Shown here: in pieces, positions 100 to 48,707 of the stretch
How the letters are laid out: each line of letters starts with the position of its first letter
How positions within the stretch are numbered: the stretch's first letter is position 1
Source: Nitrosovibrio tenuis
GTDB lineage: Bacteria; Pseudomonadota; Gammaproteobacteria; Burkholderiales; Nitrosomonadaceae
Length of the DNA stretch: 50,966 nucleotides
Reading direction: 5' to 3'
Assembly: GCF_900109785.1 (NCBI RefSeq)
Contig: NZ_FOBH01000014.1
Location: 1-50,966, forward strand
Translations under genes and position numbers: made by a program
Notes under the pieces: model-generated
What the model was told of the DNA's origin: nothing
Database searches by the model: none
Seen by the model: the letters and a program-made list of their open reading frames with translations, nothing else

Positions 100-632
100 A
101 CTCGACGATATTTCAAACCCAAAAAAGTTTCTGTCTATTAATCAGATTAGACGTTAAAGTCGTTTCCGTATTTATTTAATTTTCATATCCATATTAGAAA
201 TGGGCATTAGCGATCAGTTGGCTGAACATACTCCGGTTAAGTCAGAGTCAATTCGCAGCGATGTTCCATCGAGAGCAAGTATAAGAAAGAGAAATGACAG
301 GCTTATTACCACGCCTGATTGCGCATCATATTCACAGCGTCGCCAGCTGCGCTGGCCGCGCGCCTCCCGTCAATATAACCGGTCTCGACAACATTATCTT
401 GTCGAATCAAAGCGGTGGCTACCTCCACCCAATTACGGCAGTTTAAAAACTAGAACTTGCTCAGTTGGTGCGGTTACGCACTGATGGTCTAATATGACGA
501 GGGTCTAATAAATAATGCTTACATTTCCTACCTAGAGCGCCCAACAGCGCCCAGCACGATTTTCGGTAGGATGATGGAGCGAAGCGCAACCCATCATGAA
601 ACTAGCGCGTCTTCAGCGTTTGGAGATCAAAT
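100..632. other. Gene-free spacer with a diverged repeat
   Basis: No convincing gene lies here. The open frame at 200-484 has no recognisable family and low-complexity basic content, so I treat it as chance. The right half holds copy A of a 137-bp repeat (381-517). The left part is AT-rich and probably carries the promoter of the leftward gene. Confidence 0.5.
381..517. repeat. Diverged direct repeat, copy A
   Basis: It starts with GGTCTCGACAACATTA and contains TTGGTGCGGTTACGCAC near its end, in the same order and spacing as 2711-2848. Small substitutions and indels separate the copies. The pair flanks the zinc-finger and alkene-reductase genes. It could be a relic of a non-autonomous mobile element; no transposase or clear inverted ends were seen. 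Confidence 0.7.
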
Positions 633-2710: not shown

Positions 2711-2848
2711 GGTCTCGACAACATTAGCTTAGCGAATCAAGGCGGTGGCTAGCCTCTGCGTAATTTACATTAGTTTAAGGCTCGATCGTACTCGGTTGGT
2801 GCGGTTACGCACCGATGTCTAATAATACCGAGGATTTAATAACACCGA
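2711..2848. repeat. Diverged direct repeat, copy B
   Basis: Partner of 381-517, in the same orientation: both start with GGTCTCGACAACATTA and share TTGGTGCGGTTACGCAC about 95 bp further on. It lies between the alkene reductase and the DJ-1/PfpI gene, in a 600-bp spacer with no intact gene. Confidence 0.7.
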
Positions 2849-2997
2849 GCGTCTAAGGCATACCGGCTTTTCGATGAGGCTCGCCGCAGACATTTGTTAT
2901 CAACCCATATGGCAGCTTGAAGAAAGCCGCATAAAAGCAGCTTGCTCATGCGTAAGCATTTTTCCATATACCCGAAACTATCGAAAGGAGAATGAAT

Positions 2998-3567
2998 ATG
3001 GCTGATGAAACCCTAAAACGACTGAAGGTTGCCATCCTGGTTACGGATGGCTTCGAGCAGATTGAACTGGTTGAGCCGCGCAAGGCTCTGGACAATGCTG
3101 GCGCCGAGACCCATATCGTGTCGCCCAAGAGCGATACGGTCCGCAGCTGGGACTTTACGGACTGGGGCAGCGAATTTCCGGTCGATAACGTGCTCGACCA
3201 GGCGAATATGCAGGACTTCGACGCGCTGTTGCTGCCGGGCGGTGTGATGAATCCCGATAAGCTGCGGATGCAGCCCAAGTGCGTGGAATGGGTGAAGGGT
3301 TTCTTTGATGCAGGCAAGCCGGTAGCGGTCATTTGCCATGGTCCCTGGACTATCATTGAGGCCGGGGTAGCGCGGGGTCGGCGGATCGCCTCCTGGCCTT
3401 CACTCAAGACCGATCTCAAAAATGCGGGTGCTGAATGGGTGGATCAGGAGACCGTGGTGGATGGTAATCTGGTATCAAGCCGTTCGCCCGATGATATTCC
3501 CGCGTTCAACCGCGAGATGATTGCGTTATTCAGTCAACAGAGTGGACAGGCACGGCGAGTGGCGTGA
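2998..3567 (+). CDS. DJ-1/PfpI family protein (type 1 glutamine amidotransferase-like)
   Basis: A 189-residue DJ-1/PfpI fold, the length of the PfpI/YhbO group. The nucleophile elbow AVICHGPW places the reactive cysteine at C113, with the acidic partner in TDGFEQIEL near the N-terminus. Relatives act as proteases, glyoxalase/deglycases or stress proteins; which applies cannot be told. An ATG six bases upstream (2992) is possible, but AAGGAG at 2985-2990 is correctly spaced for the ATG at 2998 and too close to the first, so I chose 2998. The gene is followed by an aldo/keto reductase relic on the same strand. Confidence 0.88.
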   Translation: MADETLKRLKVAILVTDGFEQIELVEPRKALDNAGAETHIVSPKSDTVRSWDFTDWGSEFPVDNVLDQANMQDFDALLLPGGVMNPDKLRMQPKCVEWVKGFFDAGKPVAVICHGPWTIIEAGVARGRRIASWPSLKTDLKNAGAEWVDQETVVDGNLVSSRSPDDIPAFNREMIALFSQQSGQARRVA

Positions 3568-7086: not shown

Positions 7087-7150
7087 TAAGAGTTCCAAGG
7101 CCGGTCGAAGACGATGACCACATTACTTCCCCGGCCAATGCGGAAGCGAT

Positions 7151-7250
7151 GTGGTCAAAGGTCTTGCCAAGCTAAGGGACTGCTTACGCCATGACCGAAC
7201 GGTCAAGTATGTTGACGCAAGCCTCTTTGTGCAAAGAGCGGCTACTCCCC
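7151..7250 (-). promoter_or_regulatory. yybP-ykoY manganese riboswitch
   Basis: On the minus strand the leader starts with GGGGAGTAGC, followed by a GCTCTTTG/CAAAGAG hairpin, then CGTCAACATACTTGACC, a second arm ending GGCGTAAGC, and GGCAAGACCTTTGACC. These are the conserved blocks and order of proteobacterial yybP-ykoY aptamers, which sense Mn2+. Immediately downstream GACCACAT (minus strand, 7156-7149) can pair with ATGTGGTC (7123-7116). This helix overlaps the aptamer's 3' end and could be the expression switch. It ends 65 bp before the start of the GDT1-family gene it should control. Confidence 0.85.
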
Positions 7251-7388
7251 AATGACATGATAATGATAACGTATCCAAGCTGATCAGTCGATAGACTAAT
7301 CAGAGAATGGGCTTGCGTTGCAGATTCGGTTATGAGCCTATCAATAAGCACGCCAAGAAGTCAAAACATTTAAAACACAGCGCATTTA

Positions 7389-36021: not shown

Positions 36022-36711
36022 TCACGGTTTAACACATTTTTCCGGTTTGCTTTCGTCACACACGAGTTCTTCCGGCGGCTTGCATTTTCCAGAGTGATCA
36101 AGTGAAACGCGGGCACGCGCTGCCTCACATGCGTTTTCATAGGTTTTGCCATCACAACCGCAAACCGGATTGTATTGGGCGTTGCATACTTCCGGCACTG
36201 CTTTGCACGATCCCTGTGCGTCGGCTATTTTGCATTGCCCGGCGCCGACCCTACAGTATTGTGAACCAGGGCATAACGTCCCGAGAATACCCCCACAGTC
36301 CAATGGTTCGATGGGCTCGATATCCTTGCAACGCTGCGCCCATTCTATGGCGAGGAAGGTCTGTGCTTTATGGCGGATGGAAGATAGCTGGGCGACAAAA
36401 CGCTTGAAATTCTCTGATCCTGCGCTGAATCGTGCTTCCGCGCACGCGGACAAGCCAAATTCGGTTGAGGTAGCGCCTCCTGCTCTGGGGTAATAAACAT
36501 AGAATATATCTACGGTACCGGCAGCGATGGCATCCCCGATAATCTCCCGAACCAAACGCAGGGTCGTGTTATCCACGCTTCCCTGGGTACTGCCCACGGT
36601 AATATTGACGGCACGACCGTACTCATCGTTTTGAATATCGCCTTGTGCAAAGGAGGTTGCGCTGAGAAGAAGGGCCGATCCGAACAGAAAAATATAAATG
36701 AGTTTCTTCAT
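36022..36711 (-). CDS. Exported protein with Kazal-type domain
   Basis: A 229-residue protein with a signal peptide to about residue 22 (ATSFAQG). The N-terminal 110 residues are of no family I know. After a Cys-rich link (CGGILGTLCPGSQYCRVGAG) comes a Kazal-type domain with CNAQYNPVCGCDGKTYENAC and a final C before KPPEE. Kazal domains inhibit serine proteases in animals; bacterial exported ones are uncommon in function studies. The reactive-site loop lies before NPVCGCDG. It has ten or more cysteines, so periplasmic oxidation is expected. It is monocistronic. Confidence 0.78.
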   Translation of the reverse strand: MKKLIYIFLFGSALLLSATSFAQGDIQNDEYGRAVNITVGSTQGSVDNTTLRLVREIIGDAIAAGTVDIFYVYYPRAGGATSTEFGLSACAEARFSAGSENFKRFVAQLSSIRHKAQTFLAIEWAQRCKDIEPIEPLDCGGILGTLCPGSQYCRVGAGQCKIADAQGSCKAVPEVCNAQYNPVCGCDGKTYENACEAARARVSLDHSGKCKPPEELVCDESKPEKCVKP

Positions 36712-36827
36712 TTTTCCTTGTGCACGGATAACCCTGTCAGGCTATTGGAATCTCCGAATAAGTTCTATATTATTTTTACTGGGAAAATTATTCAGAGATT
36801 CCCCGGCTGTTTGCCGCAATCGCAGGT

Positions 36828-37244
36828 CTAATTGGGGCCGATAGGTCCGCCTTGCTCCTCCTTCGGGTCTTTCATTGGTCGTCCCTCTTTGTCCCTGGCG
36901 AATTCAGGCACATGAGGGTCGCTGCTCGGTGAGGCCGGGTCCTTGGCCCGTTCCACCCTTTTCTTTTGATCTACATACCCGGTATCCATTTTTTCCGATG
37001 CTTTGGGCATACCGTATTTGTCTTTTTCCCCGGAATTTTTTGCACCATTCTTGTTCTTTCCGGCTGGACCCTGACCAGCAGGACCTTTGATGGTATCCTC
37101 CTTATCACTATAGTCGCCTGGGTTCTCCTTGGTATAACCACCACCTTGGGCATGAGCAATGCCCGACACGCCAAAAAATATGGTGCCGGCCAGACCCAGC
37201 ACAGATGCCAGTGATCGTACGTTTGATGTAGAGAAGAATTTCAT
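36828..37244 (-). CDS. Small exported polar protein (shared-leader gene A)
   Basis: A 138-residue protein with signal peptide to about residue 33 (SGIAHAQG), then a Lys/Asp/Glu/Gly/Pro-rich chain without hydrophobic core (for example GPAGQGPAGKNKNG), probably disordered. No family is recognised. The ATG at 37244 has AAGGA six bases upstream, so the longer frame to 37283 is rejected. Its leader (37264-37325) is shared with the genes at 37565 and 46317. It lies next to one of them on the same strand but with its own leader. Confidence 0.65.
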   Translation of the reverse strand: MKFFSTSNVRSLASVLGLAGTIFFGVSGIAHAQGGGYTKENPGDYSDKEDTIKGPAGQGPAGKNKNGAKNSGEKDKYGMPKASEKMDTGYVDQKKRVERAKDPASPSSDPHVPEFARDKEGRPMKDPKEEQGGPIGPN

Positions 37245-37263
37245 GGCTATTCCTTTTTTCATC

Positions 37264-37325
37264 CAGCAATATTGCTGTGTCATAAAGGTTACTCGGCATT
37301 TCCTAACTCTTCAGTGCGGTAACAC
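37264..37325 (-). promoter_or_regulatory. Shared leader module, copy A
   Basis: On the minus strand GTTACCGCACTGAAGAGTTA (box, about 37304-37323) is followed 33 bp later by the perfect palindrome CAGCAATATTGCTG (37264-37277), which ends 20 bp before the ATG. The same two elements, order and spacing occur in copies B and C. Confidence 0.6.
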
Positions 37326-37564
37326 ACCAAAAATTATTTCTGATGCTCTTCAGTTAAAACGGGATGATGAAAAATTTCATTGAAGAGCAATGGCGGCTGC
37401 GTCGGCTTGCTTTTCCGGGCCTGCGTCAGGCTTGGCAGCAAAAGGCAGCTGCTCTTTGCCTGGTGCCTTGCGCCTTTTGCCTGGCCGCCTTTGAGCACCC
37501 ATCCGCAAGCGTTGAAGCAACTGCGAGCAAGCGTCTCTATGCAGAGTTATTCTTACAGATTGCC

Positions 37565-37894
37565 TTAATATCTGCCTTTGAGCCTGGGACCCGTGCCATT
37601 TGTTGGAGAGTGATCATATAAGTCATTATCCCCATCTCTGGCCGAGCCTTGATATGAGCCGCCATATTTGTCACCGCTCGGCCGCTGGGTGCTGCCATAC
37701 TGGCCCCGCTCGCCGGAGCCGCTCGTGCCATAGTCGGATTTTTTGCCTGCGGCGTCGGAACCTGGCGCGGAGCCGCCGTATGGCGCAGGCGACTCAATCT
37801 GATCTGCGGAATACCCCTGCGCATATGCTGTGCCAGCGACAACAAAGACGAGCGCGGTAGCCAGTACGGTTGATTTTAATATCGAGTTTTTCAC
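37565..37894 (-). CDS. Small exported Gly/Ser/Tyr-rich protein (shared-leader gene B)
   Basis: A 109-residue protein with a signal peptide to about residue 26 (VAGTAYAQG), then a repetitive polar chain with recurrent YG (PAPYGGS, KSDYGTSGSG, RGQYGST, GDKYGGSYQG) and the tail GPRLKGRY. No family is recognised; disorder or matrix association is likely. The start is GTG at 37894, preceded by AGGGAAATAGCC, which matches the GGAATAGCC before gene A. The frame's upstream TTG at 37921 lies inside the palindrome of the leader, so I reject it. Confidence 0.65.
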   Translation of the reverse strand: MKNSILKSTVLATALVFVVAGTAYAQGYSADQIESPAPYGGSAPGSDAAGKKSDYGTSGSGERGQYGSTQRPSGDKYGGSYQGSARDGDNDLYDHSPTNGTGPRLKGRY

Positions 37895-37915
37895 GGCTAT
37901 TTCCCTAGTCGGATG

Positions 37916-37976
37916 CAGCAAAATTGCTGTAACTCAATCCTATCGGCGGGATGGTAATTGTTCAGTGCGTTATCAC
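37916..37976 (-). promoter_or_regulatory. Shared leader module, copy B
   Basis: On the minus strand GATAACGCACTGAACAATTA (about 37954-37973) is followed by CAGCAATTTTGCTG (37916-37929), ending 22 bp before the GTG start of the gene at 37565-37894. Confidence 0.6.
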
Positions 37977-38127
37977 ACGGAGGCACCTAAGCGAAACAGC
38001 CCGGCAGACTGCGCTATTCCGGATTCATCAATATCATATTGACCCGGAATGTATTCATGGGTGTGAGCATCGTCACTGTCCATGTTGTGTCATAGACCAA
38101 AAGCGGGCCCTTGAATCAAAATTGACG

Positions 38128-38403
38128 ATGGTAATTGAGATTGGCATTAACGGCCGCTCATCTAGAGGTGCGTCGTTCAGCCAGGACAGTGCGGATGTGG
38201 CTTTTCTCCCCTTCGGTAGCCAGCTGGCCGGTGATCAGGACTGCAGGAACTTTAATTGGCGGGGAACTTATGCCACACAAACAGGTATAATCTACGGCTT
38301 GAACTTCAAATACGTGAACGACTTCGCCGCCGGGGCTTTTCCGGGCAGCGTCGCGAAATGTGCCTTTCAGCCCGGCTGGTCGCCGTGGGTCGAATGGAAC
38401 TAG
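38128..38403 (+). CDS. Possible hypothetical protein, weak support
   Basis: The frame from ATG 38128 reads MVIEIGINGRSSRGASFSQD, then ADVAFLPFGSQLAGDQDC, then an aromatic C-terminus (CAFQPGWSPWVEWN). Composition of the second half looks protein-like, but there is no ribosome-binding site and no known family. It converges on efp with a 38-bp gap. It may be a relic. Confidence 0.22.
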   Translation: MVIEIGINGRSSRGASFSQDSADVAFLPFGSQLAGDQDCRNFNWRGTYATQTGIIYGLNFKYVNDFAAGAFPGSVAKCAFQPGWSPWVEWN

Positions 38404-38441
38404 GTCAGGGAGGGGAGAGCTGACCGGAAGGGTGAATTAAG

Positions 38442-39008
38442 CTATGCTCGCTCGATATATTCACCGCTGTCAGTATTGATCTTTATTTTCTCGCCTTGCA
38501 AAACGAATGGCGGAACCATGACGACCAAGCCGGTTTCCATTGTGGCGGGCTTGTAAGAGCTGGTGGCCGTCGCTCCCTTAAGGTTGGGCTCAGTGTCGGT
38601 GATGGTCAGCACCACGCTGGCAGGGAGCTGGACGCCAATGGCGCGGTCATTGTGAAAATTGACTTGCACATCCGTGTTGGGAAGCAGGTATTCGTACTGA
38701 CCCTCAAGGAATTCCTGCGACAGGTTTAGCTGCTCATAATTTTCCTTATCCATGAAAATATAATTGTCGCCGTCCTGGTAGAGGAAGGTCATCTCGCGCG
38801 GTTCAACAAAGGCACGTTCCACTTTGTCTTCGGTACGTATGCGCTGATTGGTTTTGGTTCCCGCTTCGATATCCTTCATCTCGACTTGCATGAATGCTCC
38901 GCCTCGACCCCCTACATGGACGTGATAAGATTTCAGCACGCGCCAGATCCGCTTGTCCCACTCGATCAGGTTGCCGACACGAATTTCAGTTGCGAGAACT
39001 TTAGCCAT
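38442..39008 (-). CDS. efp: Elongation factor P
   Basis: A 188-residue protein of normal length with the three EF-P beta domains (IRVGNLIEWDKRIWRVL, QVEMKDIEAGTKTNQRIRT, ASSYKPATMETGLVVMVPPF, GEYIERA). EF-P rescues ribosomes stalled at polyproline. The loop reaching the peptidyl-transferase centre is VGGRGGAF with Arg35, where most EF-Ps of this sequence type have Lys (PGKGGA). The overall sequence recalls alphaproteobacterial EF-P more than the SGRN type modified by EarP. Neither a lysine-modification gene nor earP is in the window. It is divergent from the UDG gene. Confidence 0.95.
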   Translation of the reverse strand: MAKVLATEIRVGNLIEWDKRIWRVLKSYHVHVGGRGGAFMQVEMKDIEAGTKTNQRIRTEDKVERAFVEPREMTFLYQDGDNYIFMDKENYEQLNLSQEFLEGQYEYLLPNTDVQVNFHNDRAIGVQLPASVVLTITDTEPNLKGATATSSYKPATMETGLVVMVPPFVLQGEKIKINTDSGEYIERA

Positions 39009-39066
39009 TGTTTTTCCAGTGAATCAAAAAACGCGCATCTTACTACAAAAAGTCGACGATAGTCTT

Positions 39067-39738
39067 ATGCAATCCAGATTTTCAGTGGATTGCCGCAAGT
39101 GCGGCCGGTTGGCCGGATTTCTGGATGAGGTAAAATCCCGCTATCCGGATTATTACGCTCGCCCGGTACCCGCCTTTGGAGACGAGGCGCCGAGGCTGCT
39201 CATCATCGGTCTGGCACCCGGCATGCATGGCGCAAATCGCACCGGTAGACCTTTTACAGGTGATTTCGCAGGTATATTGTTATATCGAACGCTATATAAA
39301 TTTGGTTTTGCCAATCATGAGGGTTCTGCTTCAGTAAAAGATAATTTGCAGCTCATGCAATGCCGTATTACCAACGCCGTGAAATGCCTGCCGCCGGAAA
39401 ATAAACCGGATTCAAGCGAGATACGTCAATGCAATCATTATCTCGCGGCGGAAATCGCTGATTTTAAGGCTGGAGGAGGCGCTGCGCTGCTTGCTCTGGG
39501 TGCTATTGCTCATCAGGCGGTCCTCATGGCACTGCAGCTCAAGCCTGGCATCTATCCTTTCAGTCATGGCGCGGTTCATGCATTACCCGGTAATTCAACG
39601 GCCAAGGCCTTGAATAACTGTAGCCTGACGCTATATGACAGCTATCATTGCAGCCGCTACAATACCCAGACGCGACGTCTCACGCCCAGCATGTTCGAGC
39701 AGATATTTGAAAAAATTCGTGCTGATATGACTGCTTGA
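39067..39738 (+). CDS. Uracil-DNA glycosylase, family 5 (UDGb)
   Basis: A 223-residue DNA repair enzyme. CRKCG near the start begins the Fe-S ligand set, continued by later cysteines (C in RITNAVKCLPP). Motif 1 is IIGLAPGMHGANRTGRPFTGD, without the catalytic Asp/Asn of families 1 and 4, which marks family 5; motif 2 is the SYHCSRYNTQT block. It excises uracil, hypoxanthine and related bases. The frame is open to 38953, but that part overlaps the divergent efp start, so I use the ATG at 39067 although no ribosome-binding site supports it. The tautomerase gene follows after 21 bp. Confidence 0.85.
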   Translation: MQSRFSVDCRKCGRLAGFLDEVKSRYPDYYARPVPAFGDEAPRLLIIGLAPGMHGANRTGRPFTGDFAGILLYRTLYKFGFANHEGSASVKDNLQLMQCRITNAVKCLPPENKPDSSEIRQCNHYLAAEIADFKAGGGAALLALGAIAHQAVLMALQLKPGIYPFSHGAVHALPGNSTAKALNNCSLTLYDSYHCSRYNTQTRRLTPSMFEQIFEKIRADMTA

Positions 39739-39759
39739 TAATAAACCGGAGATTAATCC

Positions 39760-39948
39760 ATGCCTTATGTAAATATTCGCATTGCCGGCACTCTCAGCCG
39801 CGAGCAGAAGAAACAGATTGCCCAGGAAATTACCGATACGCTCGAGCGCGTCGCACACAAACCGAAATCCTATACATACATTGCTTTCGATGAATTGCCG
39901 CACGAAAGCTGGGCCATAGCCGGAACCCTGCTGGGAGATGAAGATTAA
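39760..39948 (+). CDS. 4-oxalocrotonate tautomerase family protein
   Basis: A 62-residue small tautomerase subunit. After removal of Met1 the N-terminal proline (PYVNIRIAG) is the catalytic base; the body (LSREQKKQIAQEITDTLERV, ELPHESWAIAG) fits 4-OT proteins, which work as hexamers of such subunits. No catechol meta-cleavage genes are nearby, so the substrate is unknown. A CGGAG site precedes the ATG. It is probably translated from the UDG transcript (21-bp gap). Confidence 0.85.
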   Translation: MPYVNIRIAGTLSREQKKQIAQEITDTLERVAHKPKSYTYIAFDELPHESWAIAGTLLGDED

Positions 39949-40357
39949 ATCTAATCCGGCAGTTAACCGCTCATTTTTCAGTTTAGCGCTATGATTCACA
40001 AAGACCTCTTGCGATACCTGATCTTTACCTTATGGTAAGTTCGCTACGGGGCGGATTGCACATTTTTTGTGACCCATGGCTGCGTTGCAACTCCTTGGAA
40101 TGGGAGCCCCACAGCGTTGCACAAGGAGCCCCACGAAGGGGAGATCGGGCAGCGGCGGGGATGCTGCGGTCGTGCTTATGGATTATGGTTAGGCGCCCAC
40201 ATCCCACTGGGGGGTCGCATCTTCCCGCGGAAGGCACTGCTCCGTCCTGCGCGGTCGCGCCATTCCGCATCGTTGCGCCTTGCCCTGCATCCCAAAAACT
40301 GCACACTCCACCCCGTCCAACTGCCGGATTTAGGTTAAAAGAGGAGGATTAAGCGCC
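39949..40357. other. Gene-free GC-rich spacer upstream of uvrC
   Basis: Long frames occur in several phases of both strands (for example 40032-40352 plus, 40025-40306 minus). None has a recognisable motif or start signal, and GC-richness explains them. Nothing else was recognised. Confidence 0.45.
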
Positions 40358-42178
40358 TTGCCGGCAGAGTCTAGTTTCGACGCGAAAGCCTTTTGCTCCA
40401 GTCTTCCATCCCAGCCCGGCGTTTATCGCATGTTGAACGCCATGGCCCAGGTGATCTATGTCGGTAAAGCCATTGATCTCCGAAAACGGGTTTCCTCTTA
40501 TTTTCAAAAGAACGGGCTGGGCCCGCGCACCCAGTTGATGGTATCCCAGGTTACGGCGATTGAAACAACCGTCACCCGCTCTGAAGCCGAGGCGCTGCTG
40601 CTGGAAAACAACTTAATAAAGTCTTTAACTCCCCGATACAACATACTGTTTAGAGACGATAAATCTTATCCATACGTAATCCTGAGCGGTCACCGGTTTC
40701 CCCGGCTTGGCTTCTACCGCGGCGCATTGGATAAGAAGCATCATTATTTTGGTCCGTTCCCCAATGCAGGGATGGTGAGGGAGAGCATACAGCTTCTGCA
40801 AAAAGTTTTCAGGCTGCGCACATGCGAAGACACTGTATTCAGCAATCGTACCCGGCCTTGTCTGCTCTATCAGATCCACCGGTGCAGCGGGCCCTGCGTC
40901 GATCTGATCAGTGAGCAGACCTATCGGGAAGATGCCAAAGATGCCGAGCTTTTCCTGCAGGGCAAGCAGACCGAAGTATTGCAAAGAATCGCCAGAAAGA
41001 TGAAGGAAGCCGCCGATGCCCAGGATTATGAGCGAGCCGCGTTGTTCCGCGACCAGATACAGTCGCTGCGTAAAATCCGTGAAAAACAGTTCGTGGACAG
41101 CGGCAACGCCCTGGATGCGGATGTGATCGCCTGTGTGGCCGAGCCTAACGGTAGCGGGAGAATTTGTGTAAATCTGGCCATGGTTAGGGGAGGGCGCCAC
41201 CTGGGGGATAAAAGTTTTTTCCCGCAAAATGCGGGGGGGTACGACCCGCCGGAGGCGGTAGAGGCTTTTCTGGCCCAGCATTACCTCAACCGAAGTGTGC
41301 CCAGCCTTATCATTGTGGGTGAAAAAATCCGCCGCGAGGCACTGCAGACTTTGCTCGCCGAACAATCCGGCCAGAAGATCATTATCAACGCCAACCCCAT
41401 CGGCAACCGTCGGGTCTGGCTGAATATGGCAACAGAAAACGCGCGGCTGGCACTTGAACAAATGCTGAGCAGGCAGGCAAGCCAGGAGGAGCGGCTGCAA
41501 GCATTACAGCAGGCTCTGGATATCCCTGGGCTCAGTCGCGTCGAGTGCTTCGACATCAGTCATACGCTTGGCGAAGCAACTATTGCATCCTGCGTGGTGT
41601 ATGACAACTTTTCAATGCGCAGCAGCGAATACCGCCGCTACAATATTAACGGTATCGTGCCGGGAGATGACTACGCGGCCATGCGTGATGTTCTTTCGCG
41701 GCGTTATCGCAAAATTGCTGAAGGCGAGAGCAGGCTCCCCGATCTGATTCTGATCGATGGCGGCAAAGGTCAGGTGAGTGCTGCTCAGGAGGTATTGGTC
41801 GAGCTTGGGTTGAATGATGCGAACCTGTTAGGGGTGGCCAAAGGCGAGGAGCGCAAGCCCGGTCTGGAACAATTGATTTTCCCAGGGGTGGAAAACCCGT
41901 TACAATTGCCAAAGGACCATCCTGGATTGCATCTCATCCAGCAAATTCGCGATGAAGCTCACCGTTTTGCGATTTATGGCCATCGCGCCAAACTAGGCAA
42001 ATCTCGAATCACTTCAAGTCTGGAGCAAATTGAGGGTATCGGCGCCAAGCGTCGTCAGAGCCTCCTGGCGAGGTTCGGGGGACTGAAAGGCGTACAGAAG
42101 GCGAGTATTGAAGAATTGCAGCAAGTGGACGGTATCAGCCGCGCAATGGCGGAAAAGATTTACCGGGAATTGCATTGA
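40358..42178 (+). CDS. uvrC: UvrABC system protein C (excinuclease subunit)
   Basis: A 606-residue nucleotide-excision repair nuclease. The GIY-YIG domain ([19 protein letters not shown]) cuts 3' of the lesion; the UvrB-binding UVR motif ([21 protein letters not shown]) follows near 210; the RNase H-like domain ([29 protein letters not shown]) cuts 5'; two helix-hairpin-helix motifs ([26 protein letters not shown]) close the protein. The start is TTG, with GGAGG ten bases upstream. uvrC, pgsA, tRNA-Gly, tRNA-Cys is the same order as in E. coli. Confidence 0.96.
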
Positions 42179-42453
42179 ATACCGTTGCTGATTTATTCCT
42201 CGATTTGCACTGTGGATGACTTCGAAGACTTGCCCGGCAAACTCATCGCCATCTGACAGGCAAGGGGGCAGGGCGAGAACCAAAATGTTGACATTATAAG
42301 AAATGGCATATAAGAGAATATTTGTTTGAGAGCAACAAAGTATCGCAGTAGGCAGGATAAAGCCAGGCTTAAGGGGTCAAATCGCGAAACGGGGATCCGT
42401 CGGCTCCAGGTTTTTTGGAATCACCATTTCTAACGGCATATTTGTGAGCCTCC

Positions 42454-43026
42454 ATGCCTTTTAACCTGCCTAACGTACTCACCTGGATGCGCATACTGGC
42501 CATCCCGCTATTTGTGGGCATCTTCTATTTCCCGCCCACCTGGTTAGCTCAATCCGACCAGAATCTGATCGCTACAATTATATTCACGGTCGCGGCAATC
42601 ACCGATTGGTTGGACGGTTATCTTGCGAGGGTTCTCCATCAAACTTCAGCTTTTGGCGCCTTTCTCGACCCGGTGGCGGATAAATTGATGGTCGCGGCGG
42701 CATTAATCGTGCTTGTCTACTTGAGCAGGCTCGATGCCCTTATTGCGTTTATCATAATCGGACGGGAGATTACGATTTCGGCCCTGCGCGAATGGATGGC
42801 GCAGATCGGCAAAGGCAAAAATATGGCCGTTTCTTTTCTTGGGAAATTGAAAACTACATCGCAAATGGCGGCTATTCCATTGTTGTTATATCATGAAAAG
42901 GTCGGTGAACATTTTAACCCGCAGGAAGTGGGAACGTGGCTCATCTATTTAGCTGCCGTACTGACGCTGTGGTCAATGGCGTATTATTTGAAGGCGGCAA
43001 TTCCTCAGGCATTGAAGCACGGATAA
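42454..43026 (+). CDS. pgsA: CDP-diacylglycerol-glycerol-3-phosphate 3-phosphatidyltransferase
   Basis: A 190-residue inner-membrane enzyme making phosphatidylglycerophosphate, first committed step to phosphatidylglycerol and cardiolipin. The CDP-alcohol transferase motif D-G-x2-A-R-x8-G-x3-D-x3-D is complete in DGYLARVLHQTSAFGAFLDP and VADK. It has four to six helices and MPFNLPNVLTWMRI as the usual start. It lies 275 bp after uvrC and before two tRNA genes. Confidence 0.95.
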   Translation: MPFNLPNVLTWMRILAIPLFVGIFYFPPTWLAQSDQNLIATIIFTVAAITDWLDGYLARVLHQTSAFGAFLDPVADKLMVAAALIVLVYLSRLDALIAFIIIGREITISALREWMAQIGKGKNMAVSFLGKLKTTSQMAAIPLLLYHEKVGEHFNPQEVGTWLIYLAAVLTLWSMAYYLKAAIPQALKHG

Positions 43027-43060
43027 AGCCAGTTTAACCTGTGCGCTCGCCTGCCCTTTC

Positions 43061-43088
43061 TTGACAAAGACGGCGGCATCCTTATAAT
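43061..43088 (+). promoter_or_regulatory. Sigma-70 promoter of the tRNA genes
   Basis: TTGACA (43061-43066), 16 bp, TATAAT (43083-43088), both consensus, 16 bp upstream of the tRNA-Gly gene. A pyrimidine-rich TTTTTTTT stretch separates it from the tRNA. Confidence 0.8.
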
Positions 43089-43104
43089 GCCAGATTGTTT
43101 TTTT

Positions 43105-43179
43105 GCGGGAATAGCTCAGTGGTAGAGCACAACCTTGCCAAGGTTGGGGTCGCGAGTTCGAGCCTCGTTTCCCGCTCCA
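43105..43179 (+). tRNA. tRNA-Gly (anticodon GCC)
   Basis: The acceptor stem GCGGGAA pairs with TTCCCGC, followed by T and an encoded CCA. The anticodon stem-loop is ACCTTGCCAAGGT with GCC in the loop, and the T-arm has GAGTTCGAGCCTC. A strong promoter lies just upstream. Confidence 0.97.
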
Positions 43180-43316
43180 GTTACTGGGAAAATGGATCCG
43201 TTCGCATCAGGCAGTCGATCGCATCACGCGCCTTATGCTGAAATCCGTTTTCCCTTTTTAGTTTTTTACGCTCGCACTACAACGGTGCAACGTGACCAGT
43301 TTGGTCGCGCAGTAAT

Positions 43317-43390
43317 GGCGGGGTGGCAGAGTGGTCATGCAGCGGCCTGCAAAGCCGTCTACGCCGGTTCGATTCCGACCCCCGCCTCCA
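43317..43390 (+). tRNA. tRNA-Cys (anticodon GCA)
   Basis: The acceptor GGCGGGG pairs with CCCCGCC, then T and an encoded CCA. The anticodon arm is CGGCCTGCAAAGCCG with GCA, and the T-arm has CCGGTTCGATTCCG. The 3' 44 nt are repeated exactly at 45256-45299, which marks the gene as an integration site. Confidence 0.97.
43347..43390. repeat. Attachment site inside tRNA-Cys (att copy 1)
   Basis: The 44 bp from the anticodon loop to the CCA end are identical to 45256-45299. This is the classic core for tyrosine-recombinase integration into a tRNA 3' end; the integrated DNA restores the tRNA. Confidence 0.85.
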
Positions 43391-43438
43391 ATATCCATGC
43401 GGTTCTTCATGGTTCAGCGGTTTTTCCTGCTATATCGT

Positions 43439-43459
43439 ATAGCAAATATATAGCAATCA
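43439..43459. repeat. Direct repeat inside element, copy 1
   Basis: ATAGCAAATATATAGCAATC here recurs with one mismatch at 45154-45174. Each copy lies 50-100 bp inside an att core, suggesting integrase arm or excisionase binding sites. Confidence 0.55.
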
Positions 43460-43834
43460 GCCAAATGCTTTTTTGATTGCATCCTGCTTTTGCTGGTCGG
43501 CAAAGTGCGCATACCGCTTCGTGCTTGCCAGCGATTTATGCCTAAGCAGCTTTCCTGTCAAATACAAATCCACTCCATTCTGTACCAGCCATGAACCATA
43601 GGCATGTCTCAGATCATGGAAGCGCAGATCATCCCTACCTATCTCTGCCAGAGCCCTACGGAAGTAAACTGACATCATGCGGTAGCTTATGCCTATGGGT
43701 AGCATGGCCGGCGTGAGTTTGAAGTTTGCGGGTAGCTTCCGCTCAATTGTATCTTTGCTCGGAACTATAACTGTGATATTTTGATTACGGTCCTGTTTAA
43801 CTGTAATCTCTGCGGTGATTTTTCTTTTTGATAC
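43457..43834 (-). pseudogene. Tyrosine recombinase (phage integrase), C-terminal remnant
   Basis: The frame from the stop at 43457 up to a TAA at 43835 codes for about 125 residues. It has LRFHDLRHAYGSWLVQNG (second catalytic Arg region), LLRHKSLASTKRYAHF with the His and the nucleophile Tyr, and a linker with VPSKDTIERKLPANFKL. The first catalytic Arg and the N-terminal DNA-binding domains are missing. It lies 66 bp from tRNA-Cys, as an integrase should, and points toward it. Confidence 0.8.
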
Positions 43835-43852
43835 TTAAAAAAGGAGAGCAGT

Positions 43853-44119
43853 GTGCCGCAATTTACGAAGGTGCTCAGGCAGCACGCTCTAATGTGCGCG
43901 CATCAAGTTAGGAGACATAACCCTGACAACCCTGAGAAAGCAAAGAGCGCGTACGAACGGGCAATGAAATTCGATGGACATAACTGCCCAACCTGTTGGG
44001 TAGATTTCAACCGTGTGACTGAGCTAAAAGTCGAGGCATCGCTCCATCAAACGAACTTCTACCTCTGCAATCACTGCGAATTTGGAGTCGCATTCTCCGA
44101 GGAAGGATCCACTGAATGA
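43853..44119 (+). CDS. Hypothetical zinc-ribbon-like small protein
   Basis: An 88-residue protein with two CxxC pairs, NCPTCW near residue 45 and YLCNHCEF near 74, likely binding one zinc. The rest is basic (RQHALMCAHQVRRHNPD). No family is recognised. The start is GTG, with AAGGAG eight bases upstream. Its stop overlaps the ATG of the next small gene (ATGA), so the two are translationally coupled. It lies in the decayed element between the two att copies. Confidence 0.6.
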   Translation: MPQFTKVLRQHALMCAHQVRRHNPDNPEKAKSAYERAMKFDGHNCPTCWVDFNRVTELKVEASLHQTNFYLCNHCEFGVAFSEEGSTE

Positions 44120-44271
44120 AGAGGTCACTCATCTGTGCAGCGTTTGGTTACATTAAAACAGAAGGGCTTTTACTAGCGTCCACACGACGGAAAGCATCAG
44201 ACGAGGGTAAGGAATATCTGTATGAGCTGGTGCGGCGCTATCGCCAAGAATGCGAGAAAGGCAATGAATAA
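44116..44271 (+). CDS. Small hypothetical protein, 51 residues
   Basis: The frame starts MKRSLICAAFGYIKTEG and ends RRYRQECEKGNE. The ATG overlaps the stop of the preceding gene by four bases (ATGA), a normal coupling signal. It is basic and helical toward the end, with no known family. It is cargo of the element between the att copies. Confidence 0.5.
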   Translation: MKRSLICAAFGYIKTEGLLLASTRRKASDEGKEYLYELVRRYRQECEKGNE

Positions 44272-44402
44272 AAATATTGCTGCTGCGGCAAACATTAGGA
44301 GATCGGCGACCAGCAGATGAAGAGGAAGACTTGGTGGGGGAGCATGGTCTAGTGATCTGCTCGCGTCACTCTACTTTACCGGGCGTGAAAAGGGTAGGCG
44401 AT

Positions 44403-44603
44403 TTATGCGGGGGTTAGTAGGGGGTTCGGGTCACAACATGCGGAGTTAAGTGCCTTCCGTATCCCTTCGCTGGGCTTTCCGTTGCCCAACTCTTTAGCCT
44501 TCTGCCAGCTCGCTTCATCGATGTAGATGTTCCGGCGCTTACCGTCCTGCATTAGCTTCGGGCGGCCCTCGGGGTTAGGGATGTGTTTTCGTTTTTCCGT
44601 CAT
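44403..44603 (-). CDS. Small phage-type protein, ribbon-helix-helix-like
   Basis: A 66-residue basic protein: MTEKRKHIPNPEGRPKLMQD, then KRRNIYIDEASWQKAKELG and KPSEGIRKALNSACC. The strand-helix-helix pattern RRNIYIDEASWxKAKEL-x6-SEGIRKAL resembles small RHH regulators found in phages and islands. It may bind DNA; this is by pattern only. Confidence 0.5.
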   Translation of the reverse strand: MTEKRKHIPNPEGRPKLMQDGKRRNIYIDEASWQKAKELGNGKPSEGIRKALNSACCDPNPLLTPA

Positions 44604-44807
44604 TGCAAAAGCTCTGATGTTTTTTCTCGTATCATTTTATCCTCTTATTTTAGAGCCGGGAACCGCTCGACAGCGCTGCCGGCTCACCATTGCAATATTA
44701 AACACTACGTCCATCAGCCCGCTTTGACCCGGCGGGCAGCCAGTGCGCATCACCCAGCCTGAGCTCAGCATACAATGCTGCATGGATTGTTTGCAAGACC
44801 TCTTTTT

Positions 44808-45002
44808 TCATTTTGTCTCTTCTGATTTATACTTACTTCCAATGTGGGACGCCACCATATCTGTATGAATTTGCATTAGTCGCTCTATTTCTTTCGCGTC
44901 AGGAGCATCGCTATCTATGGCATTTCTATATGCCACTTTTGCAGCTATTATGTCCAATTCCTCTTGAGTATGTTCTTCTCCCGTGCTCGGGTTAATGCTC
45001 AT
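44808..45002 (-). CDS. Small hypothetical protein, 64 residues
   Basis: An acidic helical peptide starting MSINPSTGEEHTQEELDIIA and containing DAPDAKEIERLMQIHTDMVA. AAGGGG is seven bases before the ATG. No family is recognised. It is the last frame before the second att core. Confidence 0.4.
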   Translation of the reverse strand: MSINPSTGEEHTQEELDIIAAKVAYRNAIDSDAPDAKEIERLMQIHTDMVASHIGSKYKSEETK

Positions 45003-45153
45003 TATTCTTGCCCCTTATCATTACGTTATCGCTGTGTTAATTATCCACACACATAATAAGGAGTCAAGGGGGTTTTGAGATATGTTAATTCCGTCGAATT
45101 CGGCGGTTTCGAACTAAGGTAAAATTTACCCTAGTTGCCCATGCAAATGGTGC

Positions 45154-45174
45154 ATAGCAGATATATAGCAATCA
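45154..45174. repeat. Direct repeat inside element, copy 2
   Basis: ATAGCAGATATATAGCAATC matches 43439-43459 with one change. It lies about 80 bp before the second att core. Confidence 0.55.
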
Positions 45175-45255
45175 AGTGTCAAAACAGCCTCTTTTGGCCA
45201 ATTCTGTCACTTATAAGTGATTGAATATATTGAATTCATGGATATATTCAACGCA

Positions 45256-45299
45256 CTGCAAAGCCGTCTACGCCGGTTCGATTCCGACCCCCGCCTCCA
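45256..45299. repeat. Attachment site duplicate (att copy 2)
   Basis: An exact 44-bp copy of the tRNA-Cys 3' end, without the 5' half of a tRNA. With 43347-43390 it delimits about 1.9 kb of integrated DNA. A second integrase relic follows it directly. Confidence 0.85.
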
Positions 45300-45312
45300 T
45301 AAAATCAATAAC

Positions 45313-45970
45313 TTACGTAAATGTGTTTCGCCATATTTTAAACCTCTTTCGCCATAATTTCGGTTTTTCCCGTTTGGCATAACCAGACAACAAAACTGGA
45401 GACACTTTCTCTCCGACGCGGGTGCGCACATATTCGGCAGTCATCGACTCGGTGGTATGTCCCAACAACTTCCTGGCGCTCGACGTGCTCTCCATGTCTG
45501 ATGCACTTTTGGCGCGAAGGTCTCTGAACTGGAAGTTCGTGAATGCGACACCCAATTTCTGCGGCATGTTTCTCTCCCCGGTCTCTCGCCAACTTGAATT
45601 GGCTGCGGAAATATCTCGAGTGCTTTAGCTGTTGGCCTTTGGTATCACAAAGCAAAGTCATGCCGACAACACCTCGCGACCTGATACGCTCGATCACTGT
45701 GGCCAGTTCCCCAACTATATCGATTTGAAGCCGCGCCTTAGTCTTCCCTTGCTCGACCGATAGCGAGCCATCCTTCACCTGATCCCACCGCATCTTAAGC
45801 ACGTCTGCCGGCCGCTGTCCAGTAAGGTAGGCGAGATCAATTGCGTCCTGAATCACCGGTGACGCGCACTCATAGATCAACGCCAGCATTTCATCCGTGA
45901 CGTAAAGATCCCGACCTTCCTTTATCTTCATTTGCCGGGTCGTGCCGGTAACCGGGTTGGCTGCAGCCAT
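45313..45970 (-). pseudogene. Tyrosine recombinase (phage integrase), frameshifted and 5'-truncated
   Basis: The first frame (45970 to about 45550) has NPVTGTTRQ, VTDEMLALIYE, AIDLAYLTGQRPADVLKMRW with the first catalytic Arg, and VEQGKTKARLQIDI. It then derails at EIG. The second frame (45567-45313) resumes with VAFTNFQFRDLRAKSASD (Arg), KLLGHTTESMTAEYVR (His and Tyr nucleophile). So all catalytic residues exist but in two frames, and the N-terminal arm-binding domain is absent. It sits 14 bp after att copy 2, in the position of a second element's integrase. It is not the same integrase as the one at 43457. Confidence 0.82.
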
Positions 45971-46435
45971 GAAGAGCTCAAGCCCATTCTGAAGCAGATT
46001 GCAGCCCTGCGCCGCGCCGACGTTGAAAAGAAAGCGCGCCAGTACGGTTTGGATATGAGCAAGGAATCTGACCGGCTTATCGCGGCTGAAGAGGTTCTTG
46101 CCGAGATGGCTCGTCGGCTAAGCACGGCCAACTGTGATGTTACAAACAGGCGTAAGCGCGCTATTGTACTGACGTACACCAGAGATTCAGTGTGGGTATT
46201 GGGAGAGCATGGTGTTCAAAAAACCGCCTCTCGTATGAGACTTATCGCACTGAACAATTCAAAGGCCAGCGTAGTATTTCCCGACAGCAATTTCGCTGAT
46301 TACTACGAGGCACATCATGAAAAATACTTCGTTTTTAATGAAAACATCGCGATCGATCCTACTGGCCGGCATGATGTTCGGAATAGCCGGCATGGGACAT
46401 GCGCAAAGCAGTGCAGGTGGCGCAGCGGGCGGTAG
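45968..46435 (+). pseudogene. 5'-truncated gene remnant of unknown function
   Basis: A convincing coding stretch opens at the integrase truncation point: HEELKPILKQIAALRRADVE, then YGLDMSKESDRLIAAEEVLA, a helical, charged peptide. After about residue 60 composition becomes less protein-like, and the frame runs into the next gene's leader and start. The only start is a TTG at 45932, inside the integrase relic. I take it as a fragment joined by recombination; family unknown. Confidence 0.35.
46242..46298 (+). promoter_or_regulatory. Shared leader module, copy C
   Basis: TTATCGCACTGAACAATTC (46242-46260) is followed 25 bp later by CAGCAATTTCGCTG (46285-46298), which ends 18 bp before the ATG at 46317. 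Box and palindrome match copies A and B at 37.3 and 37.9 kb. Confidence 0.6.
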
Positions 46436-46748
46436 TGCCGGTGGAGGAACTGCTGGTAGCGGTGCCGGTCAGGCTGGTGGAGGAATGTCTGGCCAGAGCG
46501 GATCAATGTCAGGATCCGGCCAAGGGTCATCCATGTCGGGACAATCCTCTACTGGGCAAGGAGGCGTCGCCGGACAACCAGGTGGCCCGACATCCGGCCA
46601 AGGCATGTCTGGAAAGAAAGGCACACCAAGAGATTCAACCAGAACACAAGGGTCCGGTTCGACTGGAGGGCAGTCATCTGGGACGGGCTCTAGTTCCGTA
46701 CCAGGGTCAAGCACTTCAGGGACGCCATCCGGATCAGGTGGTTACTGA
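46317..46748 (+). CDS. Exported Gly/Ser-rich low-complexity protein (shared-leader gene C)
   Basis: A 143-residue protein with a signal peptide to about residue 29 (GIAGMGHAQS) and then almost only Gly, Ser, Thr, Gln and Ala (SAGGAAGGSAGGGTAGSG, MSGQSGSMSGSGQGSS, SSGTGSSSVPGSSTSG). No domain. A GAGG site precedes the ATG; a second ATG seven codons later is possible. Likely disordered and periplasmic or extracellular. Its leader is shared with the genes at 36828 and 37565, 9 kb away and on the other strand. Confidence 0.65.
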   Translation: MKNTSFLMKTSRSILLAGMMFGIAGMGHAQSSAGGAAGGSAGGGTAGSGAGQAGGGMSGQSGSMSGSGQGSSMSGQSSTGQGGVAGQPGGPTSGQGMSGKKGTPRDSTRTQGSGSTGGQSSGTGSSSVPGSSTSGTPSGSGGY

Positions 46749-46805
46749 TCAGTAACTGAGACACCGCCGTTCATCTTAGGATAAAAAATCTTTTAGGAGT
46801 TTGAC

Positions 46806-47225
46806 ATGGAAAAAGTCAGCGATGTCATGCATACCAATGTAGAAACCATTGGCCCGGAAGAGACCATAGAAGAAGCAGCGCAACAGATGCGAAACGGTGA
46901 TTTCGGGGTTTTGCCGGTGGTAGATGGTGACAACCTGATCGGAATTATCACCGATCGAGACATCGTCGTCAGAGCGGTTGCAGAAGGCAAAGGTCCGGAC
47001 ACACCGGTTGAAGAGGCTATGTCGGACGAGGTTGTAAGTGTACATGAGGATGCCTCTGTAGAAGAGGCTGCCCAGGTAATGAGTGACCATCAGATACGCC
47101 GTTTGGCAGTTGTTGATGCTGAGAACAAGCTTGTGGGAATCGTATCGCTTGGGGATTTTGCTGTAGAGAGCTCCGACTTGGGCCCGGTTGTCGAAACGCT
47201 CTCCGATGTTTCGAGGCCGGCTTGA
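46806..47225 (+). CDS. CBS domain pair protein
   Basis: A 139-residue protein made of two CBS domains (about residues 1-60 and 70-128). SDVMHTNVETIGPEETIEEA and GVLPVVDGDNLIGIITDRDI mark the first; VEEAMSDEVVSVHEDASVEE and RRLAVVDAENKLVGIVSLGD the second. The pair forms a Bateman module that usually binds adenosine nucleotides. Stand-alone ones act as energy sensors or partners of other proteins. A TTTAGGAG site precedes the ATG. It follows the Gly/Ser-rich gene by 57 bp and may share its transcript. Confidence 0.9.
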   Translation: MEKVSDVMHTNVETIGPEETIEEAAQQMRNGDFGVLPVVDGDNLIGIITDRDIVVRAVAEGKGPDTPVEEAMSDEVVSVHEDASVEEAAQVMSDHQIRRLAVVDAENKLVGIVSLGDFAVESSDLGPVVETLSDVSRPA

Positions 47226-47283
47226 GTAATCAGTGGCTGCTGGCAGGCCATAAAACAGGGAGAGTCAATATAGAAGTATAGAA

Positions 47284-47361
47284 ATGGATAACCCACTTAT
47301 ACTTTGGGTTGTATATTTTCTCGTTCTTGCAGTGGGATTAGGGCTCGTGGTAGTGACCTGA
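47284..47361 (+). CDS. Possible 25-residue membrane peptide
   Basis: The frame is MDNPLILWVVYFLVLAVGLG followed by LVVVT and a stop: one hydrophobic helix. It lies 58 bp after the CBS gene and before a hairpin. The ribosome-binding site is weak, so this is a candidate only. Confidence 0.3.
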   Translation: MDNPLILWVVYFLVLAVGLGLVVVT

Positions 47362-47389
47362 TTGCAATAAAGCATAAAAACCGCCGCTT

Positions 47390-47431
47390 GTGAAAAATAA
47401 AAAAGCCCGGCAGAAGGGGGTCTGCCGGGCT
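47390..47431 (-). terminator. Strong intrinsic terminator
   Basis: AGCCCGGCAGA and TCTGCCGGGCT (47404-47431) pair perfectly. On the minus strand TTTTTTATTTTTC follows, so it stops leftward transcription from the GWPE genes. The perfect stem may also act rightward after the CBS gene. Confidence 0.75.
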
Positions 47432-47631
47432 GTGCCTCATGAGAATAGGCACTCCATAGCACCTTAGGGATGGCGCGAACAGAATCTCATAAAAATATGT
47501 CCGGTTCGTGACGGCGCGACGCCATCAGTCACAAACCCTCCCGGCGACTGTATGAGCATATGCATCGTCTGTATCTTGCTTTGAACGCCAAGTGCAAACG
47601 CACCAAAAACTCGCTGAAAGGCGGGTTTTCT

Positions 47632-48209: not shown

Positions 48210-48407
48210 TGCCCCAGCAAAAAGATAAGAACCCTTGTGGGGTTGTATGCCTATAGCGGGAGGTGTCGGTGGCACAATAGCTGAGGATCTGTCGCAGAGG
48301 TCGAACCATCTATGATTGTGCGGGAACCGGACGTGCGATAGCGTACGGTTTCTATTTCATATGTCACGTAGACTTTTGCTTTAGCTGTGTTATATAGCGG
48401 AGCCGCC

Positions 48408-48707
48408 ATGAAAGACCTTTCCTCAAGAAGTAAGGAAGTTAGAGCGATAGTTTTTGTCAACATGCTGCTTTTGGGTTGTTTTACAGGTGGCGTTTATGCT
48501 CAGTCGCAAAATCTTAAGGGTGAAAACACGCAAAAATCCCAAATAACGGACGAGAAACCTGCGAATAAGCGCGATGCAACAAATGACGCTAGAACAACGG
48601 GAAAAGAGCAATCGAAGCAAAAGCCGCGTAAAGACGCAGGGAATTATAAAGGTGCTCAGCCGCCGCAAGGCGGTCGGATAGGTCAAGGTCCAGACCATCC
48701 CTATTAA
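48408..48707 (+). CDS. Small exported Lys/Gln-rich protein
   Basis: A 99-residue protein with a signal peptide to about residue 31 (GCFTGGVYAQS) followed by a charged, probably disordered chain (KRDATNDARTTGKEQSKQK) and the end GRIGQGPDHPY. A cysteine at the signal's hydrophobic region (LLLGC) could be a lipobox, but the spacing to the polar part favours ordinary cleavage after YAQ. GGAG is six bases before the ATG at 48408. It resembles in type, not sequence, the exported proteins at 36828 and 37565, but it lacks their leader. Confidence 0.55.
   Translation: MKDLSSRSKEVRAIVFVNMLLLGCFTGGVYAQSQNLKGENTQKSQITDEKPANKRDATNDARTTGKEQSKQKPRKDAGNYKGAQPPQGGRIGQGPDHPY

Follow-up and report, generated by a model that had tools for sequence, protein, structure and literature searches.

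Class II promoters of the CRP/FNR superfamily combine an inverted repeat near position -41.5, with a GTG-N8-CAC core, and a sigma70-type -10 element. Promoters of extracytoplasmic function (ECF) sigma factors have a conserved GGAAC-type -35 and a CGTT-type -10. Hydrophilins are defined as strongly hydrophilic proteins with more than 6% glycine that are induced by hyperosmotic or drying stress. 5'-terminal stem-loops are reported to stabilise the ompA and papA mRNAs (papers cited in PMC3997798 for both and in PMC7509114 for ompA). Here we analysed a 50,966-nt stretch of Nitrosovibrio tenuis DNA (contig NZ_FOBH01000014.1, positions 1 to 50,966; contig C25 of the 3.1-Mb genome G000), hereafter called the window, in which three genes for small exported proteins (A, B, and C) share a leader upstream of the start codon. 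We consider it probable that these leaders are class II, activator-dependent promoters of the sigma70 type, that they belong to one CRP/FNR-type regulon, and that the exported proteins form a hairpin-led subset of it. Among the titles and abstract openings of the literature matches listed, which included few subscription papers, we found no account of such a regulon, and this does not establish its absence from print.

Promoter Anatomy of the Leaders

An earlier note on this DNA had described a box CGCACTGAACAATT, a spacer, and a palindrome CAGCAAnnnnGCTG ahead of the three genes, and this three-copy arrangement was confirmed at 37244 (-), 37894 (-), and 46317 (+) (Table 1). The box is exact at 37956-37969 (-) and 46246-46259 (+) and has two mismatches at 37305-37318 (-). 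From the end of the box to the palindrome there are 27, 26, and 25 bp in A, B, and C, and from the palindrome to the start codon 19, 21, and 18 bp, in agreement with the ranges given before (25-33 and 18-22 bp). Across the 3.1-Mb genome the combination of box and palindrome (spacer pattern 30-35) occurs at these three places alone, and a reversed control has none. A wider-spacer combination was detected in 13 of the 22 other genomes of our genus sample (23 Nitrosospira-genus genomes including the window's own), in none of 58 genomes beyond the genus, and not in the control. Within the window the palindrome is enriched when one mismatch is allowed (16 versus 4.8 expected; none of 100 shuffles had as many). 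With up to three mismatches the box alone showed no enrichment there (7 versus 5.4 expected; 29 of 100 shuffles equalled or exceeded this), and it was dropped as a signal by itself.

To define the conserved letters, 47 distinct leaders picked by box, palindrome, Shine-Dalgarno-like sequence, and start codon were aligned and counted. The column counts gave a 20-bp inverted repeat, TY-N-GTGYG-NTAN-CGCAC-N-GA, referred to below as the dyad. The box seen earlier is real, but it covers only the right half of this dyad; the left half and an invariant -10 had been missed. The letters conserved upstream in relatives lengthen the box to GTGnGnTAnCGCACTGAA, which occurs 37 times, spread over 16 of our 23 genus genomes, and never in the reversed control. 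The hexamer TAnnnT, which played no part in picking the leaders, lies 21-23 nt past the CAC of the dyad in 47/47 leaders and exactly 22 nt past it in 42. This spacing puts the dyad centre near the class II CRP/FNR position; a start site 7 nt past the -10 hexamer, as inferred from the sequence, would place it at -41.5. The GTG-N8-CAC core is present in the 47-leader counts and is weaker in copy C and in sites of the CGTAC type.

Our first idea was an ECF sigma promoter, with the box as its -35 (GAA), CGTA as its -10, and the palindrome as a separate operator. The letters after the dyad core (G in 47, A in 47, and A in 42 of the 47 leaders) and the CG often found before the TA of the -10 (G in 40, C in 36) would suit such a promoter. 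The GA, however, mirrors the left-side TY and for this reason was assigned to the 20-bp dyad; the T, A, and T of TAnnnT are invariant (47/47 each), whereas the preceding CG varies; and the sites cluster with CRP-family genes (see below). The ECF reading was dropped once TAnnnT proved invariant and the GA fitted the dyad, and we regard it as very unlikely.

Dyad sites were scored by a position weight matrix (PWM), for which the best site in shuffled windows reached 14.2. As single sites, the copy C dyad (9.9) and a further dyad at 48330 (13.1) fall below this maximum. Copy C is recognised by the whole leader, with an E-value of 3.3e-9 in a covariance model of the complete leader (R1). Targets in the same genome outside the exported family mostly keep the spacing, with TAnnnT at 22 nt in four loci (L140, L142, L145, and L146) and CATGAT at 22 nt in its place in L141. 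No site was found at five loci that we read (L177, L338, L341, L358, and L144).

Distribution of the Leader and of the Dyad

R1 matched 4-22 times per genome in 23/23 genus genomes at E ≤ 1, and 32 times in the window's own genome at E ≤ 10. Eighteen of these 32 matches were examined: 16 have a start codon and a Shine-Dalgarno-like sequence downstream and two do not. Nine of the 16 precede small exported polar proteins of the A, B, C, or D kind, and two more precede exported proteins and have no hairpin. The remaining five are genes for DUF4142, PRC-barrel, and CHRD proteins (all by Pfam), for a hydrophilic protein that lacks a signal peptide, and for a small protein with no Pfam match. In two relatives a DUF421 gene lies 3' of the box by reading frame, one of them tested against Pfam.

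A second model, R2, describes the dyad and -10 only. It gave 9-29 matches per genus genome at E ≤ 0.1. In a sample of 150 genomes of the order, 20 were matched at E ≤ 0.01 (19 besides the window's own), as against about 1.5 expected from the E-value. Outside the genus the dyad precedes a CsbD gene (Pfam; two more are CsbD-like by eye), a BON gene, where the -10 is not at 21-23 nt, and a CRP-family gene in two genomes (G159 and G071). These results support a regulon with a common promoter and operator, as had been suggested, and its gene set is large. The expectation that further hits would lie only before small exported proteins largely holds for the full leader; the dyad alone also precedes stress-type genes.

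Also outside the genus, one 51-kb contig (G180:C126; loci L257 and L258) carries five dyad matches together with CRP homologues and looks like a stress-gene island.

A Candidate CRP-Family Regulator

Judged from the sequences, the regulator is most likely of the CRP type. Our candidate is a 241-amino acid (aa) CRP-family protein encoded at G000:C19:46051-46773 (-). It matches HTH_Crp_2 (PF13545) at 5.3e-15, and its structure model (mean predicted local distance difference test, pLDDT, 80.5) matches CRP, GlxR, FNR, and NtcA (E 6.4e-12 against 4a2u). For 18 of our 23 genus genomes we fetched one locus apiece, and 17 of these loci hold an ortholog of the 241-aa type; the other, L194, holds a different paralogue and was left out of the 17-locus count. 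A divergent upstream dyad with TAnnnT is present at 17/17 loci. A downstream dyad is found at 16/17 at the PWM cut-off, one with CATTAT, and the 17th (G006) is matched by R2. Twenty shuffles of 60 kb yielded 4 sites in total. The 17 loci are orthologous, so this is conservation and not a set of independent events. Behind these dyads lie AsmA (downstream) and a giant gene of the GH94 type (upstream), and in some loci an SDR gene follows a third dyad. The giant gene presumably encodes a cyclic-glucan synthase and the SDR gene what we take to be GSP39; Pfam gave GH94/glycoamylase and SDR families, respectively. For two other products, which we take to be YSC84 (a 110-aa piece) and PepSY-like, Pfam gave nothing. 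One genus genome carries a dyad some 150 bp ahead of a different CRP paralogue; in another a CRP paralogue is followed by a C-type exported gene with its leader.

At L196 (G013:C10:395000-403500) the CRP ortholog seems to be split into two frames and both flanking dyads are retained; other HTH_Crp_2 matches are present in that genome.

The association extends to the order sample, in which CRP homologues were counted at E ≤ 1e-10 and genomes were called dyad-positive at R2 E ≤ 0.01 with strict filters. A homologue was found in 17/20 dyad-positive versus 33/130 dyad-negative genomes (Fisher 5e-7, which ignores kinship and genome size), and in 16/19 dyad-positive genomes when the window's own was removed (Fisher 1e-6). 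Among the sites listed outside the genus, 6/34 are within 5 kb of a CRP homologue versus 0.25 expected.

Several observations weigh against this assignment. The cyclic nucleotide monophosphate (cNMP) domain PF00027 scores 26.6 bits in the candidate, just below its cut-off of 27.5. Two further CRP-family matches occur in the window's own genome, a full paralogue (C13:172163), near which no dyad was found, and a partial match (C19:56476); the full paralogue could also bind the dyad. In the order sample no CRP homologue was detected in 3/20 dyad-positive genomes, and 33 homologue-bearing genomes have no site under the filters given above. In a rival reading, a dimeric regulator from a different family, encoded elsewhere, binds the dyad, and the CRP-family gene is just one member of the regulon. 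In 5/17 loci the dyad also has a TAnnnT facing the CRP-family gene, which may thus be a target, and the presence of two full paralogues in one genome fits as well. We find this explanation unlikely, given that the GTG-N8-CAC spacing and the -41.5 position are those of CRP-type activators, and that the CRP association reaches other families of the order.

The Palindrome as a Predicted 5'-Terminal Hairpin

In the 47 leaders the palindrome starts 7 nt (15/47) or 8 nt (32/47) past the -10; its end lies 17-25 nt upstream of the start codon. With this distance from the -10, the transcript is predicted to begin within about 2 nt of the palindrome. The earlier note had left room for a hairpin in the 5' untranslated region, and covariation supports a transcribed one. 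The set consisted of 96 distinct rows out of 101 leader matches, from 93 loci chosen from 368. The paired fraction of stem cells in these rows is 97.8%, 11 cells have double changes, and 0/500 shuffles reached either value; alignments in which the hairpin was slid paired at most 52% of cells. Among 92 counted rows the stem is CAGC/GCTG in 71, with CGGC/GCCG and TGGC/GCCA as variants, and the loop has 5, 6, 7, and 10 nt in 10, 79, 2, and 1 rows. The predicted stem probability exceeds 0.5 in 39/47 leaders.

The same data contain points against a hairpin. Because the model fitted the alignment to the structure and the rows are related, the shuffles overstate the support; three doubly changed pairs were reached by 2/500 shuffles. 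Position 5/10 in the inner loop does not covary (A-C in 22/45), the loop is symmetric, and the stem is short (4 bp, median -3.7 kcal/mol). The folding of four whole leaders is only slightly better than that of shuffles (z -1.0 to -1.6); the hairpin is missing from the minimum-energy fold of the B leader.

The alternative is that the start-site palindrome acts in DNA, as a second operator, for instance of an Lrp/AsnC-like kind, repressing the exported-protein subset. CAGCAATATTGCTG is symmetric through its centre, and the pairs at position 5/10 do not covary, both as expected of an operator. Its half-sites would have variable spacing, however (loops of four lengths), the stem has compensatory and G-U changes, and of two non-leader palindromes that we inspected neither was at a recognisable promoter-like place. 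Because of the compensatory and wobble changes we preferred the RNA hairpin, which we judged about three times as likely as the DNA operator; as an account of the palindrome the operator seems rather unlikely. By analogy with the ompA and papA stem-loops, the task of the hairpin is likely mRNA stability.

Outside the genus the palindrome was present at 0/24 loci with a recognisable site (27 examined; three had no PWM site above 14). A palindrome at G000:C28:9853 lies within the start of a coding frame and was taken as a chance match. Weak leader matches at L345 and L364, before another protein type, have GTTCG half-sites and the hairpin CAGCTATTT(T/C)GCTG, and possibly represent a further branch of the leader family.

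The Exported Proteins

The proteins behind the leaders had been called unrelated. This holds only in part, as the signal peptides of A and B are related: B signal peptides scored a median of 24 bits against an A profile, compared with 1.9 for control N-termini (n = 93). The medians for C (3 scored) and D (8) were 8.2 and 6.0 bits, above the control median and within the control range; these controls may still include A-family members, and the highest score among them was 62.6 bits. Paralogy of all exported families through the signal peptide was thus rejected, as it holds for A and B only.

With cleavage sites guessed by pattern, the mature parts have a median of 16.7% glycine, each with at least 11.2% (47/47), a grand average of hydropathy (GRAVY) with a median of -1.32 and a maximum of -0.68, and no cysteine (47/47). 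The C-terminal motifs vary by group (GGPIGPN; G-T/S-GP...RY; SGGY). The gene A product is predicted to be disordered (AlphaFold pLDDT 53.6) and matched no Pfam or NCBIfam family; none of the three exported proteins of the window, all tested, has a Pfam family. The exported A family was found in 1/150 order genomes, namely the window's own, and 17/17 confirmed gene A relatives among named genome contigs are titled Nitrosospira or Nitrosovibrio. By these sequence searches the A family is genus-limited in the samples covered. A protein with a Kazal-type inhibitor domain is encoded directly after gene A (36022-36711, -).

Surroundings of Copy C and Further Sites in the Window

Copy C had been placed inside decayed mobile DNA, and it does lie just after integrase remnants. 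One remnant (PF00589) occupies 45338-45970 (-), closely preceding copy C. A repeat of the tRNA-Cys 3' end at 43337-43390 lies 1.9 kb away at 45246-45299 (54 bp, 93%), and both tRNA-Cys copies have an integrase-like remnant beside them, at 43460-43834 (-) and at the position just given. The repeat and the integrase pieces led us to conclude that elements had in the past integrated immediately ahead of copy C, which may itself have arrived with one. A 56-bp segment directly before copy C (46160-46215) shares 86% identity with a part of the Nitrosospira plasmid pNRS527-1 that has no listed gene; no other plasmid record matched the region of copy C.

A mobile expression cassette, by which leader and signal peptide were copied before unrelated bodies, had also been put forward. 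The position of copy C just after an integrase remnant could be read in this way, and B signal peptides scoring with the A profile would also fit shuffling. When A was compared with B, and B with C, including 600-bp flanks, however, in-register similarity was confined to the leader and first codons, and a repeat search over 36500-47500 found no repeat flanking the three copies. The C and D signal-peptide scores stay within the control range, and the dyad promoter also occurs apart from the exported family. These findings speak against the cassette, which we consider highly improbable. A and B occur together in several relatives.

Besides many sites elsewhere in the genome, the earlier note had missed a dyad with a -10 at 48330 (+) and two direction-uncertain sites at 465 and 2796 (Table 1). 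The layout of the 48330 dyad recurs before a similar protein in locus L346. The window holds an intergenic repeat roughly 130 bp long (GGTCTCGACAACATTA...CGAATCAA.GCGGTGGCTA) in two copies, at 300-510 and 2700-2845. At the end of each copy is a dyad flanked on both sides by -10-like hexamers, near the zf-UBP and DJ-1/PfpI genes, and the repeat may carry the operator. The window also contains a yybP-ykoY manganese riboswitch (Rfam RF00080, 107.5 bits) at 7090-7262 (-).

Table 1. Predicted leader elements, their genes, and further dyad sites in the window.
Feature	Sequence	Position	Strand	PWM score	Remarks
Gene A dyad operator (predicted)	TTGGTGTGTTACCGCACTGA	37311..37330	-	30.2	Earlier note's box is the right part
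Gene A -10 hexamer	TAACCT	37286..37291	-		22 nt past CAC of dyad
Gene A palindrome (predicted 5'-terminal mRNA hairpin)	CAGCAATATTGCTG	37264..37277	-		
Gene A		36828..37244	-		ATG start; 138-aa exported, predicted-disordered protein
Gene B dyad operator (predicted)	TCCGTGTGATAACGCACTGA	37962..37981	-	27.8	
Gene B -10 hexamer	TAGGAT	37937..37942	-		
Gene B hairpin element	CAGCAATTTTGCTG	37916..37929	-		Absent from minimum-energy fold of B leader
Gene B		37565..37894	-		GTG start; 109-aa exported protein, C-terminus GTGPRLKGRY
Copy C dyad operator (predicted)	TATGAGACTTATCGCACTGA	46234..46253	+	9.9	Degenerate left half
Copy C -10 hexamer	TAGTAT	46272..46277	+		
Copy C hairpin element	CAGCAATTTCGCTG	46285..46298	+		
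Gene C		46317..46748	+		ATG start; 143-aa Ser/Gly-rich exported protein
Further dyad	GACGTGCGATAGCGTACGGT	48330..48349	+	13.1	TAGACT at 48369-48374; no hairpin seen
Small polar protein		48408..48707	+		Signal-like N-terminus; downstream of 48330 dyad
Possible dyad	TTGGTGCGGTTACGCACTGA	465..484	+		TCTAAT at 504-509 faces zf-UBP gene (633-896); TAnnnT on other side too; direction uncertain
Possible dyad	TTGGTGCGGTTACGCACCGA	2796..2815	+		TTTAAT at 2835-2840 faces DJ-1/PfpI gene (open reading frame 2992-3567); TAnnnT on other side too; direction uncertain

Discussion

The promoter anatomy, its conservation, the covariation of the stem, and the genomic association with a CRP-family gene were computed from the genomes. 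From them we infer binding by a regulator, a transcription start, mRNA stabilisation, a protective role of the products, and an inducing signal. A dimeric activator of the CRP/FNR superfamily, most likely the 241-aa protein of contig C19, would bind TY-N-GTRYG-NTAN-CRYAC-N-GA near -41.5, with a paralogue of similar recognition helix as a possible additional binder, and the bound activator would recruit RNA polymerase to the TAnnnT -10. Transcripts for the exported proteins would start no more than about 2 nt from a hairpin with a 4-bp stem and a loop of mostly 5-7 nt, and this hairpin probably shields the mRNA 5' end and prolongs mRNA life. The glycine-rich, cysteine-free, disordered products are probably extracytoplasmic, hydrophilin-like protectants and would be made alongside general stress and envelope functions. 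The regulon probably aids stress survival of soil ammonia oxidisers.

For the CRP-type regulator group, which is present in 50/150 order genomes, these results supply a specific operator, the geometry of its promoters, and a list of targets, which makes it directly testable. Exported proteins that lack a Pfam family (three tested), with the A family confined to the genus in the samples, are placed in one regulon. The regulon also provides a starting point for studying how stress is met by soil ammonia oxidisers, a group important for nitrification. More tentatively, and in our view less likely than not, a CRP-superfamily regulator and not an alternative sigma factor may run the general stress response of Nitrosospira and part of the order, extended by fast-evolving secreted hydrophilin-like proteins with a shared, purpose-built 5'-terminal mRNA hairpin. 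If true, transcription and mRNA longevity would be coupled in one portable leader.

Compared with class II CRP/FNR promoters (E. coli CRP, FNR, and cyanobacterial NtcA), the leaders have the inverted repeat near -41.5, GTG-N8-CAC, a sigma70-type -10, and a candidate regulator with the CRP fold. They differ in the half-site GTRYG, the TA centre, and the outer TY/GA, as against TGTGA or TTGAT, in the weak cNMP domain match, and in their targets, which here are stress-type genes and exported disordered proteins. Like the reported ompA and papA stabilisers, the leaders have a hairpin, predicted to lie within about 2 nt of the transcript's 5' end and ahead of the Shine-Dalgarno sequence, but their hairpin has only 4 bp, is conserved in sequence, and is common to an entire set of genes, and its stabilising role is proposed by analogy. 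High glycine, strong hydrophilicity, and predicted disorder (A only) recall hydrophilins and proteins like the late embryogenesis abundant (LEA) group; the leader proteins differ in carrying signal peptides, and the likeness is one of composition. The CsbD, DUF4142, and PRC-barrel targets overlap with those of general stress regulons of the sigmaB, EcfG, and RpoS types, whereas here a CRP-type dyad on sigma70-like promoters takes the place of an alternative sigma factor. Overall, the machinery is of a familiar type. What is new is the setting of the proposed CRP-type class II regulon, which has a defined operator, a subset of genes with an unusual 5' hairpin, and an exported protein family that the samples showed in this genus alone.

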